Shown here: positions 50,817 to 57,607 of the stretch, one piece after another
Position numbering within the stretch: position 1 is the first letter of the stretch
Layout of the letters: each line of letters starts with the position of its first letter
Source of the DNA: Ferrovibrio sp.
GTDB taxonomy: Bacteria; Pseudomonadota; Alphaproteobacteria; Ferrovibrionales; Ferrovibrionaceae
NCBI RefSeq assembly: GCF_002796975.1
Contig: NZ_PEKV01000007.1
Span: forward strand, 76,615 to 140,614
Reading direction: 5' to 3'
Length of the DNA stretch: 64,000 bases
The notes under the pieces: model-generated
Databases searched by the model: none
What the model was told of the DNA's origin: nothing
What the model saw: only the letters and a program-made list of their open reading frames with translations
Translations under genes and position numbers: made by a program

Positions 50817-51839
50817 ATGGTTGCCCTGACCGGAACGACCCAGCTGGCCATGCAGCAGGCGATGAGCCGCAATATCAGCCTGCTCACCACCATGCTGAAC
50901 CGGCAGAACCAGCAGCTCGCCACCGGGCTGAAGCTGGACGGCCTGATCGGCGTTTCCAGCCAGGCGCAGGAACTCGGTGCACTGAAGTCCAAACTCGGCA
51001 CGGTGGAGAACTATACCGAGGCGCTGAAGACGGCAGCCAATCGCACTGATCTCTATGCACTTTCGCTGGAGAAGATCATCGACCTGGCGACCGACGCCAA
51101 GGACATGATGATCAAGAACCGCGACCCGTATTTTGCATCCACGGCCGCCCCGGCGACGCAGGCCGCCACGCTGCTCAATCAGATCGGCAGTATCCTGCAA
51201 ACCAAGGACGGCGACCGCTACATCTTCTCCGGCAGCAATTACAACGCCAATCCGCTGTCGGGCGCGCTGTCTGACCTGCCGGCGGTCTATGGACCGGGCG
51301 CAGTGCCGGGTACGCCGGGCTATGACGATCCGCTACAGGTGGTAACGGATGGAACCCAGCCCGGCCAGCCGCCGTATCTCAATCTCGGCCCCGCCGACCT
51401 GCAGAATTTCTATGATACGAGTGAAGTCGGGCTTTACGTGGACGACAATGAGCGCGTTTCCTATGGTGTCTCCGCCGTGGAGTCGGGCTTTCAGCGCGTG
51501 ATCGATGCTATCTTGCGTTTCCGCGATGCCACGGCCGATCTCGGTGTGGACGATCCGAACTATCAGGCTCGTGTCGACGATGCGATGAAACAGCTCGACC
51601 TGGCGATTTCAGATCTCAAGTCGACAGCCTCAAGCAACGGCTACCGGCAGCAGCATCTCGAAGAGGTGCAGGAGCGTCATGCCCGCGCGGCCGATCTGCT
51701 GAAAATCCGCATCGGCGGCATCCAGGATGCGGATACCGCCGAGGTCACAACCAGCATCGCCGGCCTGCAATCGGCACTGGAGGCATCCTATGTGGTGACC
51801 AGCAAGATGCTGTCGCTCTCGCTGGTCAATTACCTGTAG
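50817..51839 (+). CDS. flgL: Flagellar hook-filament junction protein FlgL (HAP3)
   Basis: 340-residue flagellin-like junction protein. The N-terminal helix QQAMSRNISLLTTMLNRQNQQLATGLKLDGLIG and the C-terminal helix VTTSIAGLQSALEASYVVTSKMLSLSLVNYL are flagellin/FlgL-type; the middle has ILQTKDGDRYIFSGSNYNANPL, specific for FlgL. It follows flgK after 3 bp with a GGGAGG site and is the last flagellar gene in the window. Its end overlaps the convergent methyltransferase-like gene by 14 bp. Confidence 0.93.
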   Translation: MVALTGTTQLAMQQAMSRNISLLTTMLNRQNQQLATGLKLDGLIGVSSQAQELGALKSKLGTVENYTEALKTAANRTDLYALSLEKIIDLATDAKDMMIKNRDPYFASTAAPATQAATLLNQIGSILQTKDGDRYIFSGSNYNANPLSGALSDLPAVYGPGAVPGTPGYDDPLQVVTDGTQPGQPPYLNLGPADLQNFYDTSEVGLYVDDNERVSYGVSAVESGFQRVIDAILRFRDATADLGVDDPNYQARVDDAMKQLDLAISDLKSTASSNGYRQQHLEEVQERHARAADLLKIRIGGIQDADTAEVTTSIAGLQSALEASYVVTSKMLSLSLVNYL

Positions 51840-52344
51840 CCGGAGCAATTGTACGTCGTGATTGCAGCGCATTTTCTTCCACGCGGATGCGATGCCAGAG
51901 CAACAGCGCATTGAGCAGGCTCCAGATCAGCGCGATCTGCCAGGCACCGAATGCCAGCGGCAGTACAGCGATCTCGCCGACCACCACGGCATAGTTGGGG
52001 TGCCGCAGCCAGCGGAACGGGCCATGCCGCACCAGTGGTGCGGAATCCAGTGTGATGATGCGGGTGGTCCAGTAAGGTCCGAGCGTGACCACCACCCAGA
52101 TGCGCAGGAGCTGTAGCACCGCGAATACACACAGCAATGGCCAATGCGGTGGTGTTTCGGCGGGAACCGTCAGCGCCAGCGCGATCAGCCATGAGCCATG
52201 CAGCAGCACGAAGAGCGGATAGTGCCCTGCGCCAATCTCTTGTGCGCCGCGCGCCAGCAGGCGGCGGGTGTTGCGCGCCGACCAGACCAGTTCGGCCAGG
52301 CGTTGCACCACGACGAAAGCCAGTACGATGTGAAAGACGGTCAT
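51826..52344 (-). CDS. Isoprenylcysteine carboxyl methyltransferase (ICMT)-like membrane enzyme
   Basis: 172-residue integral membrane protein with about four or five helices and the ICMT-type SAM segment GPFRWLRHPNYAVVVGEI followed by NALLLWHRIRVEENAL. The start at 52344 overlaps the polyketide synthase stop as ATGA, so the two are co-translated. In known type III PKS operons a homologous methyltransferase (SrsB) O-methylates the alkylresorcinol product. The same role is likely here: methylation of a phenolic lipid or pyrone in the inner membrane. Confidence 0.88.
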   Translation of the reverse strand: MTVFHIVLAFVVVQRLAELVWSARNTRRLLARGAQEIGAGHYPLFVLLHGSWLIALALTVPAETPPHWPLLCVFAVLQLLRIWVVVTLGPYWTTRIITLDSAPLVRHGPFRWLRHPNYAVVVGEIAVLPLAFGAWQIALIWSLLNALLLWHRIRVEENALQSRRTIAPATGN

Positions 52345-53414
52345 TGCAGATCGATGACCTGCAGCGCAGCTGTGAAACCGGGACCGAGCGCGGTCAGCAG
52401 TTGCCGGCCGTGCACGCCATCCGCCATCGCGGCAGCCAGAACGAACAGCACGGTGACCGAGGACATATTGCCATGTTCGCGCAGCACCTCGCGGGCATGA
52501 CGCATGGCACCGTGCTGCAGATCGAAGCATTCCTCCAGCGCATCCAGCACCTTGGCGCCACCGGGGTGGCAGAGATAGCCGGCGATCTCTTCGGGCAGGA
52601 TGCCATGATCGGCAAAGAAGCGGTCGACCACCGGGCGCAGGTCGTTACGTACCAGGTCTGGGATATTGCCCGAGAAGATCACCTTCAGCCCATCATCGCC
52701 GACATCCCAGCCCATCACATCCAGGCTGTTGGGCCAGGTATGTTCGCCGGCCGCGCCCAGCATGGGCTTGCCGGCATGACGGCTGCGGCTGCTGATCACG
52801 GCCGCCGCTGCGCCATCGCCAAAGAGAGCAGTGGCGACGATGTTGCTTTTCGAACGGTCCTGCGCGCGGAAGGTCAGTCCGCAGAGTTCGACCGCCAGCA
52901 GCAGCACATTGGATTGCGGCCGCGCCTTGGCCATCGCGGCGGCGCGCGAGAGGCCGAGTACGCCGCCGGCGCAGCCCAGGCCGAAGACCGGCAGGCGTTG
53001 CACGTCGCTGCGCAGGCGAAGCCGGCCGATCAGCCGTGCATCCAGGCTGGGTGTGGCAATGCCGGTGGAGCAGATGGTGACGACGATGTCGATCTCATGG
53101 GCCGCAATACCAGCTTCCGCCAATGCCTTCTCGGCCGCCTCGGCCAGCAGGTCGGTGGCATTGCCGAGAAACAGGTCGTTGCGCTCGCCGAATGAATGCC
53201 GCTGGACGTACCAGTCGATTGGCACGCAGGAATGGCGCTGCTCGATTTCTGCGTTGCGATAGATCGGCGTCAGGCGGCCGAAATCGGAAACCATCGGCGC
53301 GAACAGTTCGCCGGCGCGACGCGCGACGTCATCCTGTGCCAGTCCAAAATCCGGCACGGCGGTTGCCAGCGATACCAGATGCGCGGTCGGCTGGCGAAAG
53401 ACACTGCTGTTCAT
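52341..53414 (-). CDS. Type III polyketide synthase (alkylresorcinol/alkylpyrone type)
   Basis: 357-residue chalcone-synthase-like enzyme. The Cys-His-Asn triad is complete: Cys148 in FGLGCAGGVLGLSR, His283 in YLCHPGGAKVLDALE and Asn316 in EHGNMSSVTVLFVL. It extends a fatty acyl-CoA starter with malonyl-CoA to make alkylpyrones or alkylresorcinols. It is co-translated with the ICMT-like methyltransferase. No dedicated fatty-acid or hydroxylase gene is adjacent. The product would be a membrane phenolic lipid, known in some bacteria as a cyst or envelope component (family knowledge). Confidence 0.92.
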   Translation of the reverse strand: MNSSVFRQPTAHLVSLATAVPDFGLAQDDVARRAGELFAPMVSDFGRLTPIYRNAEIEQRHSCVPIDWYVQRHSFGERNDLFLGNATDLLAEAAEKALAEAGIAAHEIDIVVTICSTGIATPSLDARLIGRLRLRSDVQRLPVFGLGCAGGVLGLSRAAAMAKARPQSNVLLLAVELCGLTFRAQDRSKSNIVATALFGDGAAAAVISSRSRHAGKPMLGAAGEHTWPNSLDVMGWDVGDDGLKVIFSGNIPDLVRNDLRPVVDRFFADHGILPEEIAGYLCHPGGAKVLDALEECFDLQHGAMRHAREVLREHGNMSSVTVLFVLAAAMADGVHGRQLLTALGPGFTAALQVIDLQ

Positions 53415-54599: not shown

Positions 54600-54996
54600 G
54601 GGAGTCCATCAGGGAAGGGAAGGGGAATGGTCCTAGAGAGTGCGGCGACGCCTAAAAGGCAAGTGCGCCGGCCTTTGCAGAAAGATGATTTGTATTTGAC
54701 GTGGCGTCATCACGTCAGGCCGGAGTACGGGAGCTGGGCGGCCGTTGGGGGACTCGGGGCCGTACGACCGTAACGGGCGAAACCGTTCCGTCCGATGCCC
54801 CGGAATCCGGCCGTCCCGGGTTATCGGAAAACCACCCGGCGATGAGAATCAAATTTATAGTTAAGCTATTGTTATTATTATAATTTTATGAATCTTTGGA
54901 ATTCTTGTGAGAATAAGCGTTGCCAAGAATTAACGGCTGGGCAATGAACAACTGCTACTAGAATTCTTGCAGTCCCGAAGCGAACCCAGTTTTCCC
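54600..54996. other. Divergent intergenic region with dyad and AT-rich promoter
   Basis: 397 bp between the OYE gene and the coiled-coil gene pair. It holds the dyad at 54697-54717, then a GC-rich part, then a very AT-rich stretch (about 54848-54895, with TTATTATTATAATTTTATG) that probably carries the promoter of the plus-strand pair. GAATTCTTG occurs twice (54899 and 54961). No gene was recognised. Confidence 0.5.
54697..54717. promoter_or_regulatory. Dyad upstream of the OYE gene
   Basis: TGACGTG (54697-54703) and CACGTCA (54711-54717) are perfect inverted arms around 7 bp; a nested TGACG/CGTCA dyad overlaps them. It lies 97 bp upstream of the OYE start. Size fits a TetR- or LysR-type operator; the regulator is unknown. 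Confidence 0.45.
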
Positions 54997-55551
54997 ATGA
55001 ATATCGTCGACATCGCGTTTGCGACCATTCCGGGCATGATCCTGCTGCTGGCCATTGGCATCGGCGGCGATGCCCTGTCGCGCCTGATCAAGACGATGGC
55101 GACCAGACACCATGACCTCGGTCAACTGACTTCAGCAGCCGAAGAGGCGCGGCGCATCTACCATGAAAAGGCCGGCCTGCTGGCCGATCGCAACAAGCGG
55201 CTGCAGGGGATTGAGTCGCAGTATCTCGGCGTATTCCGCGAGGTACAGGCCCTGCGCAATGCCGAAGAGGCGCTGCAGGATCCGCAGAACAACACAGTCT
55301 TCGAGATCGGCGTTCCGGCCATGGGCGCGCAGGGCTGGTATGCCCGTGTGCTGCTGCGCCGCAAGCACGACATGTTTCATGGTCTTGGCACCACGTCGAC
55401 CAACAGCGAAGGTTATCGCATGGGCCGGCTGGTGATCTGGGGCGTCGACGGCGACACGGCGAAGCAGCTCTGTTACCAGCGGTTCAACAAGGAAGCCTCG
55501 ATCCTCTCGATCCAGCCGTTCCGTGGAAAGCTGAAGCGCGCCGATGTCTAG
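54997..55551 (+). CDS. Membrane-anchored coiled-coil protein (hypothetical, first of a pair)
   Basis: 184-residue protein. An N-terminal helix (about residues 5-25, IAFATIPGMILLLAIGIGG) is followed by a charged coiled-coil stretch (about 45-92, with AAEEARRIYHEKAGLLADRNKRLQG) and a C-terminal domain of mixed strands with WYARVLLRRKHDMFHG and GRLVIWGVDGDTAKQL. No family recognised. The ATG at 54997 has no evident Shine-Dalgarno; an in-frame TTG lies 10 codons upstream. It overlaps the next gene, of similar design, by 8 bp, suggesting a hetero-complex at the inner membrane. Function unknown. Confidence 0.75.
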   Translation: MNIVDIAFATIPGMILLLAIGIGGDALSRLIKTMATRHHDLGQLTSAAEEARRIYHEKAGLLADRNKRLQGIESQYLGVFREVQALRNAEEALQDPQNNTVFEIGVPAMGAQGWYARVLLRRKHDMFHGLGTTSTNSEGYRMGRLVIWGVDGDTAKQLCYQRFNKEASILSIQPFRGKLKRADV

Positions 55552-56110
55552 CCTGTTCAATCTCGACATGATGTCGTTGACCTATGTGCTGGTGGCAGCG
55601 GCCAATCTGGCGCTGGTCCTGCTGATTGGAAATCTGACCTACGAGCGCGCGCGCGACGCCTGGCACTCGGTCAGCGGCCGGGCAAACACCCTGCAGACCA
55701 GCCTGACCGATCTGCAGGCATCTGCCGAAGCAGCGGAACGCCAGTCCGCCGAGGCGGACCAGAATATCGGTGCTGCGCTGAAGAAACTGGCCGCCATCGA
55801 AGACGAGCTCGAGCAGCTGAAAAAGCGGCATGAGGAAGAACCGCTGCCTTTTGTCTACCGCGTCACGCCAACCGAGAATTTCGATCCCGGCGGTGCAATC
55901 TGGGAATTCCTCGTGCAGCATGATGAAGGCCTGCAGGAGATCGATGCGCATCATCCGGCGCGTCAATGGGTCAACGGTCGCCATTACCTGATCCAGGGGG
56001 CGACGCAAAAGGCCGCCCAGCGCCAGCTCGAGCGGCATGTGCCGGAATCGGCCGGTTTCCGCATCACGCTGCTGCGCAATCATGATACCGGCTTCGCGAA
56101 AGCCGGCTGA
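55544..56110 (+). CDS. Membrane-anchored coiled-coil protein (hypothetical, second of a pair)
   Basis: 188-residue protein of the same plan as its neighbour: an N-terminal membrane helix (about 11-29, TYVLVAAANLALVLLIGNL), a coiled coil (about 38-97, with AEAAERQSAEADQNIGAALKKL and ELEQLKKRHEEE), and a C-terminal domain of about 85 residues. It starts within the last codons of the first gene, so the pair is translationally coupled. No catalytic motif is visible. Possible roles are a scaffold or envelope complex; this is a guess from topology. Confidence 0.75.
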   Translation: MSSLFNLDMMSLTYVLVAAANLALVLLIGNLTYERARDAWHSVSGRANTLQTSLTDLQASAEAAERQSAEADQNIGAALKKLAAIEDELEQLKKRHEEEPLPFVYRVTPTENFDPGGAIWEFLVQHDEGLQEIDAHHPARQWVNGRHYLIQGATQKAAQRQLERHVPESAGFRITLLRNHDTGFAKAG

Positions 56111-56195: not shown

Positions 56196-56211
56196 TGTGA
56201 CCGCGATCACA
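56196..56211. promoter_or_regulatory. Perfect CRP/FNR-type binding site
   Basis: TGTGACCGCGATCACA is a full TGTGA-N6-TCACA dyad, the textbook CRP consensus. Its centre (56203.5) is about 41 bp upstream of position 56245, where a roughly 76-nt RNA ending at the terminator would begin, the geometry of a class II activator site. Confidence 0.6.
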
Positions 56212-56242
56212 GCGCAGGGCCGGGTGACCGTGGAATGATCTC

Positions 56243-56320
56243 CGGGTCAGCGTCGAGGGATGACCCTCGTGTTCCCCAACTGAAGCCCCGGAGCCTTGTG
56301 CTCCGGGGTTTTCTTTTTTT
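56243..56320 (+). ncRNA. Candidate suhB/mmgR-like small RNA
   Basis: This intergenic stretch ends in an excellent intrinsic terminator and has a second small hairpin, CGAGGG/CCCTCG (56254-56259 with 56264-56269, loop ATGA). The hairpins are joined by the single-stranded TGTTCCCCAACTGAAG. From memory, the hairpin plus CCCCAAC linker plus terminator resembles the alphaproteobacterial suhB/mmgR (alpha-r8) trans-acting RNA family, about 77 nt long. It lies between a coding pair and the convergent fccB gene and has no ribosome site or reading frame. The 5' end is estimated from family size and the upstream CRP-type site. It could alternatively be only the 3' leader and terminator of the upstream pair. 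Confidence 0.55.
56286..56320 (+). terminator. Intrinsic terminator (end of candidate sRNA)
   Basis: A perfect 9-bp GC stem (CCCCGGAGC 56286-56294, GCTCCGGGG 56300-56308) with a 5-base loop is followed by TTTTCTTTTTTT. It is 4 bp from the convergent fccB stop and may also block read-through into it. Confidence 0.9.
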
Positions 56321-56323
56321 GGC

Positions 56324-57607
56324 TTAACCAAATGTGTCGGCGATGATGCTGGCATACCAACCCATCGTGTATTCGGCTTCGGCCTTGCGTTGCGCGGCGG
56401 TGGCACGTGCCGGCGACACGCCGCCGGAATTCGGCACCAGCGTCGGACCTTGCGGGCCCGGACGATAGGTATCGCTGACCGAGATGCCGTAGTCCGGCGT
56501 CACCAGGCTGTAGCAGGTATTGTGATACACGGCGGCCGGCGGCTGCACGCCGCGCAGGCTCGCCACGATGTTGGCTGCTACCACTTTGGCCTGGCTGTTG
56601 GCCGAAGTGCCGGATTTCGGCATCTGGCCGGCAATCGAGGCATCGCCCAGCACATAGACATTCTGCGCTTTGCGCGACGCGAAGTTGTTGGGATCGACGG
56701 CGCACCAGCCATTCGACTCTGCAAGTCCGGCATCCAGCGCGATCTTGCCCGCCGTCTGCGGCGGGATCACATTGATCACCGCGCCTTTCTCCTTGCCGAA
56801 GCCAGCGGTCACCGTCATCCCCTTGGGATCGACGCTTTCCACCTTGCCGCCGTCCTTGCCGGCGATCCAGGTGATCATGCCGGGATACTGGCTTTCCCAG
56901 CCGGCCATGAACAAGCCCTGCTTGGAGAAGGCATCCTTGGCATCCAGCACCAGGATCTTCGACTTTGGCTTACGGGTCTTCAGGTACCAGGCGATCATGC
57001 TGACGCGCTCGTAGGGACCGGGCGGACAGCGGAAGGGATTGGCCGGTGGCGCGATGATCACGGTGCCGCCATCGGCCATGGCTTCCAGCTGCCTGCGCAG
57101 CAGCACCGTCTGCGGACCGGCTTTCCAGGCATGCGGCATCACCGTATTGGCGGCCCGCTCGCTCCAGCCCGGCACGCCGGCATAATTCAGCTCGATGCCG
57201 GGAGCGACGACCAATCGGTCATAAGGCAGATTGGCGCCGTCCTTCAGCTTCACGCTGCGGGCACTGGTATCGACAGCCGTGGCTTCGCCGCGCACCAGCC
57301 GCACGCCGTAGCGCTGGCGCAGCGGATCGCGCCCATGCGTGATGCTGTTGATGTCGCGGATACCGGCCAGCACATAGTTCGAGAAGGGGCAGGTGACATA
57401 GGTGGCATCGCGCTCCACCAGCACCACATCAATGTCGGGCGAGAACAGTTTTATATAGCGCGCGGCCGTCGCACCGCCGAAGCCGCCACCGATCACGACG
57501 ACGCGGCCGGCCGAGCCTTGCGCGCGGGCAATGTGGGGCGCCGCGAAGAGTCCGGCGGTGGCGCCGAGACCGGCGAGGATTTTGCGGCGAGAGATATTCG
57601 AGGTCAT
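56324..57607 (-). CDS. fccB: Flavocytochrome c sulfide dehydrogenase, flavin subunit (FccB/SoxF-like)
   Basis: 427-residue periplasmic flavoprotein. A Tat signal ([28 protein letters not shown]) is followed by the FAD-binding [18 protein letters not shown], the redox-Cys region [15 protein letters not shown], a mid-domain with [17 protein letters not shown], and the FCSD C-terminal domain with [25 protein letters not shown] and YHNTCYSLV. It oxidises sulfide to sulfur and passes electrons to the c-type cytochrome encoded 14 bp upstream. No other sox genes are near. Function may be sulfide detoxification or thiosulfate metabolism. Confidence 0.92.

Follow-up and report, generated by a model that had tools for sequence, protein, structure and literature searches.

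The genome of a Ferrovibrio species (G000, 4.23 Mb, an alphaproteobacterium) very probably contains a real and new small RNA gene of restricted lineage, as judged from sequence comparison. The gene is located next to fccB, in the 64,000-nucleotide stretch of DNA analysed here, which we refer to as the window. Its presence, its promoter layout and its complementarity to other transcripts are supported by comparison among related genomes. The reading that we favour, with somewhat more than even confidence, is that of a lineage-restricted, CRP-activated, trans-acting sRNA of about 73 nt which would pair with two mRNAs, those of a porin and of an MBL-fold hydrolase, in their 5'UTRs.

The original prediction had placed a perfect CRP-type site about 41 bp before the estimated start of a small RNA, followed by a small hairpin, a linker and a strong terminator, and all of these elements are borne out (Table 1). 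The site, TGTGACCGCGATCACA, is a perfect two-fold symmetric palindrome and the only perfect TGTGA-N6-TCACA in the whole window, where 0.026 would be expected from the base composition; the entire genome of G000 contains four, as compared to none for the reversed-pattern control. Another perfect CRP palindrome in G000 (L106:1501-1516, C8:44000) is flanked by a sigma-32-like (rpoH-type) gene on one side and a dienelactone-hydrolase-like gene on the other, and a matching palindrome is present in G005 at position 931302. With the predicted +1 at G56245 the centre of the site in the window falls at exactly -41.5, a placement which, counted from this predicted start, is the same in all five genomes that carry the locus. 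Together with the -10 element this is the layout of a class II CRP promoter, for which a -35 is not required. The RNA from 56245 to 56320 (76 nt) folds with -39.2 kcal/mol (z = -6.2 versus dinucleotide shuffles), the arms of the terminator stem being 56286-56294 and 56300-56308, followed by the T-rich run at 56309-56320. The U-rich 3' tail after the terminator is of the UUUUCUUU type in four of the five carriers, and G008 has a short U6 run.

Table 1. Features of the small RNA locus and its convergent neighbour (window coordinates)
Feature	Position	Strand	Basis
CRP-type palindrome TGTGA-CCGCGA-TCACA, centre 56203.5	56196..56211		sequence; half-sites invariant in 5 species, N6 varies
Extended -10-like element TGG-AATGAT (AATGAT 56234-56239)	56231..56239	+	TGG[AG]AT[AG]A kept in 5/5 species
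Predicted small RNA, ~73 nt, +1 predicted at G56245	56245..56317	+	-41.5 spacing; 37-nt invariant block; score of covariance model R1
Predicted target-pairing region GUCAGCGUCGAGGGAUG	56246..56262	+	17/17 complementarity to MBL-fold 5'UTR (4 genomes); porin 5'UTRs of G000, G005 and G008
5' hairpin CGAGGGATGACCCTCG, CGAGGG-AUGA-CCCUCG, 6-bp	56254..56269	+	fold
C-rich linker TGTTCCCCAACTGA (RNA UGUUCCCCAACUGA)	56270..56283	+	sequence; first 12 nt invariant in 5 species
Intrinsic terminator, 9-bp stem and T-rich run	56286..56320	+	fold; stem varies, largely kept
fccB-like flavocytochrome c sulfide dehydrogenase flavoprotein gene, convergent neighbour	56324..57607	-	Pfam FCSD_central, FCSD-flav_bind

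The unit is found beside fccB in five of ten genomes of the genus (G000, G001, G004, G005 and G008), with hairpin, linker and terminator recurring in register in the four genomes other than G000. The 37-nt block at 56245-56281 is 100% identical (37/37) in all five carriers, and both CRP half-sites are invariant, with only the six bases between them changing (CCGCGA, CCGCGG or CCATGG). The spacing from palindrome to -10 is likewise constant. Around these elements the DNA diverges: the stretch from the CRP site to the -10 is 28-78% identical across the carriers (18 bp with 2 invariant positions), and the DNA upstream of the site 38-67% (48 bp with 8 invariant positions). An invariant block and invariant half-sites held at constant spacing within diverging surroundings are the mark of a promoter plus RNA gene. 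The terminator stem shows one two-sided change among the five species, and covariation in the hairpin is uninformative because the hairpin never varies.

It is highly improbable that the locus is merely a terminator, or the 3' end of an upstream ORF pair and of the convergent fccB, although the terminator stem, located within a few tens of bp of the stop codon of fccB, could act on either strand. The 37-nt invariant block, the CRP palindrome and the -10 in register would be superfluous for a plain terminator, and genomes without the unit have a different sequence with different terminators after fccB. The upstream neighbours in G000, G001, G004 and G005 are two same-strand ORFs of unknown family. 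In the window these ORFs overlap (194 and 188 aa, 54967-56110) and have no Pfam or NCBIfam match; the pair is kept beside the sRNA in four species. In G008, however, a divergent hemN takes the upstream place and promoter and RNA are still kept, which excludes read-through from the ORFs of the other species as the source. This conservation argues against a 3'UTR by-product. A type III polyketide synthase gene and an isoprenylcysteine-type methyltransferase gene, an adjacent, alkylpyrone-like pair, were also observed in the window at 51826-53414.

Could the conserved segment instead encode a tiny translated leader? The frame ATG ACC CTC GTG TTC CCC AAC TGA (MTLVFPN, 56260-56283) is open and its stop is kept in all five species, with TGA changed to TAG in G004. 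However, a synonymous change is found at none of its codons, the start lies inside the stable hairpin with GAGGG directly abutting, and no same-strand gene follows before the convergent fccB. The seven-codon ORF is probably untranslated, and we regard a leader peptide as highly improbable.

The covariance model R1, built from the small RNA unit, gave 95-105 bits at the five loci, which are the model's own training sequences. A search with R1 of the five other members of the genus, eight other genomes of the family and 43 other genomes of the class yielded nothing comparable, and those weak matches that were inspected align mainly in the terminator. When 84,980 species genomes were scanned for an exact 21-mer, three records only were returned, consistent with the known carriers. 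Named records with the element belong either to Ferrovibrio sp. or to an unclassified Alphaproteobacteria MAG. The sRNA looks like a previously undescribed one that is confined to one branch of the genus Ferrovibrio.

It had also been suggested that the locus is a suhB/mmgR-like RNA of the alpha-r8 family, with a link to polyhydroxybutyrate regulation. This family is defined by an internal single-stranded core, the 10-mer 5'-UUUCCUCCCU-3', and in Caulobacter its members SisA-D have been connected with the carbon state (PMC12559287). The candidate shares with suhB, mmgR and SisA-D (RF00519) the plan of a short alphaproteobacterial RNA with hairpin, single-stranded linker and terminator, although a 5' hairpin and a Rho-independent terminator are not specific to alpha-r8. 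The alignment to RF00519 is weak, with 19.9 bits as against a gathering score of 41, and an Rfam scan of the window gave no match at the gathering score. The core UUUCCUCCCU is absent from the candidate; its linker has UUCCCCAAC at this place and consists of UGUUCCCCAACU plus variable bases in G000 and the four other carriers. A genuine suhB RNA with an intact core, GUUUCCUCCCUAGACUU, is located elsewhere in G000 (C2:95472-95545, L068:1501-1574; 72.1 bits), and the other four carriers also possess a genuine suhB RNA with the core. The usual alpha-r8 neighbour, an N-formylglutamate amidohydrolase gene, is not found beside the candidate, where fccB and the two ORFs of unknown family are located; unlike in the usual setting, such a gene was not recognised within 1.5 kb of the G000 suhB RNA either. 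On the grounds of the low score, the missing core and the separate true copy, the suhB/mmgR identity is rejected as hardly credible, and the polyhydroxybutyrate link falls with it, because it rested on this identity. By its sequence, the candidate is an RNA separate from suhB.

In another reading the candidate would act as a sponge on the suhB RNA of its own genome, in the way of CrfA and SisA-D in Caulobacter (PMC12559287). Like CrfA, it would be a carbon-state RNA of an alphaproteobacterium with a purine-rich hairpin segment; both the candidate and suhB RNAs coexist in the same genomes, and UCCCU of the suhB core has its complement in AGGGA of the hairpin. However, the gain from cofolding the candidate with suhB is only 2-4 kcal/mol, and in none of the five species does the suhB core become paired. 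The candidate thus differs from CrfA in lacking a predicted pairing with the suhB core and in having predicted mRNA targets instead, and the chance of a sponge function appears very slim.

With regard to the regulator, the CRP site had been taken to imply catabolite control. Conservation gives good support to a small RNA gene with a CRP site, and control by CRP (cAMP) is plausible. Three CRP/FNR-type helix-turn-helix proteins among the best of G000 were examined, and two of them have FNR/DNR-like helices. The L123 protein (G000:C16:121177-121908) contains cNMP_binding and HTH_Crp_2 domains, and its recognition helix TTRETVARVL aligns to RETVGR of E. coli CRP. The genome therefore encodes a cAMP-binding-type CRP with an RE..R recognition helix, as the class II reading of the promoter supposes. 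Its orthologues are 94-98% identical in the carriers and 72-74% in the non-carriers. From the recognition helix we infer that this CRP homologue would bind the palindrome, and activation of the sRNA by CRP seems likely to us. Hfq is encoded in all five carriers.

The 5' region of the sRNA, GGUCAGCGUCGAGGGAUG, is complementary to the 5'UTRs of an MBL-fold hydrolase mRNA and a porin mRNA. When the locus was used in blastn searches, a second conserved place was found in four genomes, matching nt 2-18 of the sRNA as the reverse complement and located within the 5'UTR of the MBL-fold hydrolase gene (PF12706). In the MBL-fold mRNA, CAUCCCUCGACGCUGAC-GGGAAAAAGGAGGCCACG-GUG, 17 of 17 nt at -35 to -19 are complementary, and this antisense match is present in G000, G001, G004 and G005. 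A position-free scan over 800 kb gives the MBL site a score of 45, which is only about 1.4 sd above the best matches of shuffled probes. The MBL-fold gene of G000 (L211, C33, ~412.9 kb) is weakly similar to a phosphodiesterase family that degrades cyclic nucleotides (42 bits, the cut-off being 400).

In G008, blastn led to the 5'UTR of a porin, one of three Porin_4-type porins in tandem (C53, L224:2885-6953), with a duplex of 18 contiguous pairs and -55.1 kcal/mol over nt 2-35 of the sRNA. The 5'UTR of the middle porin is nearly antisense to the entire 5' half of the sRNA, forming a 32-nt near-complement. The porins of G000 and G005 were picked by synteny (ubiB/leuS), without use of complementarity. 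Of the pair in each genome, the downstream porin possesses a site that ends in GGCGCUGACA, which the upstream paralogue lacks. The comparison of porin leaders covers the carriers G000, G005 and G008; roughly 400 kb sampled from the non-carrier G002 contained neither the porin nor the MBL-fold gene. A perfect CRP palindrome, TGTGATTGCCATCACA, was also observed ~190 bp before the start of the middle porin in G008.

Start-like regions were ranked by duplex energy in sampled parts of the genomes, with gene starts taken from a simple rule. Among 1,342 such regions in G005 (mean -31.3, sd 4.1; ~0.9 Mb covered), the MBL-fold mRNA is first (-50.0) and the porin second (-49.4 kcal/mol). The same two lead the 293 regions of the G000 sample in this order, and the porin leads the 65 of the G008 sample. 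The MBL-fold mRNA was included in these samples because it was already known, so that the porins of G005 and G000 represent the independent test. Complementarity to mRNA start regions is conserved for MBL in four species and for the porin in G000, G005 and G008. Other blastn matches of the 5' arm, at C33:471702, C13:44158 and G005:3281579, appear inside coding sequence and were rejected.

The pairing region of the sRNA lies partly inside the stable hairpin, with an opening cost of 15.0 kcal/mol. With full competition, the G008 porin shows a strong net cofold gain (-21.1) and MBL a fair one (-11.0); for the porins of G000 and G005 (-7.4 and -4.9) the gain is within the range of shuffled mRNAs. 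Taking the sequence evidence together, we lean slightly towards the porin and MBL-fold mRNAs as the two targets. Alternatively, the same CRP-controlled sRNA might pair mainly through its exposed C-rich linker UUCCCCAAC with G-rich Shine-Dalgarno regions, in an anti-SD style, the 5'-arm matches being secondary. All five species have this linker without any change, and the predicted fold leaves part of it unpaired. However, exact TTGGGGAACA sites are mostly antisense to coding sequence, with no convincing start-region target, and the inspected TTGGGGAA-N-ATG sites that are common to several species lie inside coding sequence or lack a convincing start, which makes pairing through the linker rather unlikely.

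For the preferred reading, pairing through the 5' arm, we propose the following course of events. At low levels of preferred carbon, cAMP would go up and the cAMP-bound CRP homologue would occupy the palindrome at -41.5, activating the class II promoter, whose -10 is extended and which lacks a good -35. The sRNA transcript would stop at the intrinsic terminator. Its 5' segment would nucleate at GUCAGCG, nt 2-8 of the RNA, and nt 2-18, probably together with Hfq, would pair with the 5'UTR of the porin (about -45 to -27) and that of the MBL-fold mRNA (-35 to -19). This pairing would be near the ribosome-binding region; translation of both mRNAs would fall, repression being the most likely outcome, and by repression the CRP signal would lower porin synthesis. 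In this scheme we infer transcription itself, dependence on CRP and on Hfq, and the direction of regulation.

In enterobacteria, CyaR is an Hfq-binding sRNA that is activated by cAMP-CRP and represses the mRNA of the outer-membrane protein ompX. With its predicted CRP activation and porin mRNA pairing, the candidate would act alike. It has, however, no relation to CyaR in sequence, synteny or Rfam family, belongs to a different class of Proteobacteria, and differs in its predicted targets, a Porin_4 porin and an MBL-fold hydrolase, which would be paired by the 5' arm. By analogy, the candidate may be described as functioning like CyaR without being related to it, and it is not mmgR. That a newly arisen, lineage-specific CRP-sRNA circuit lowers a major porin, a parallel to CyaR reached independently, is a tentative suggestion.

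The CRP site at the porin in G008 may indicate that CRP acts on the porin gene and on its sRNA, in a feed-forward loop. Should the MBL-fold product of L211 degrade cAMP, a feedback loop would result. The 32-nt near-complement in the G008 porin 5'UTR would even be compatible with the sRNA having arisen from porin leader DNA. If our reading is true, this little-studied alphaproteobacterial genus would possess a young sRNA family for which the trigger (cAMP-CRP) is defined and two targets are predicted, and which would be a case of CRP control of a porin via an sRNA outside the gammaproteobacteria. Its presence and absence within one genus would provide a test of the joint origin of the sRNA and its targets.
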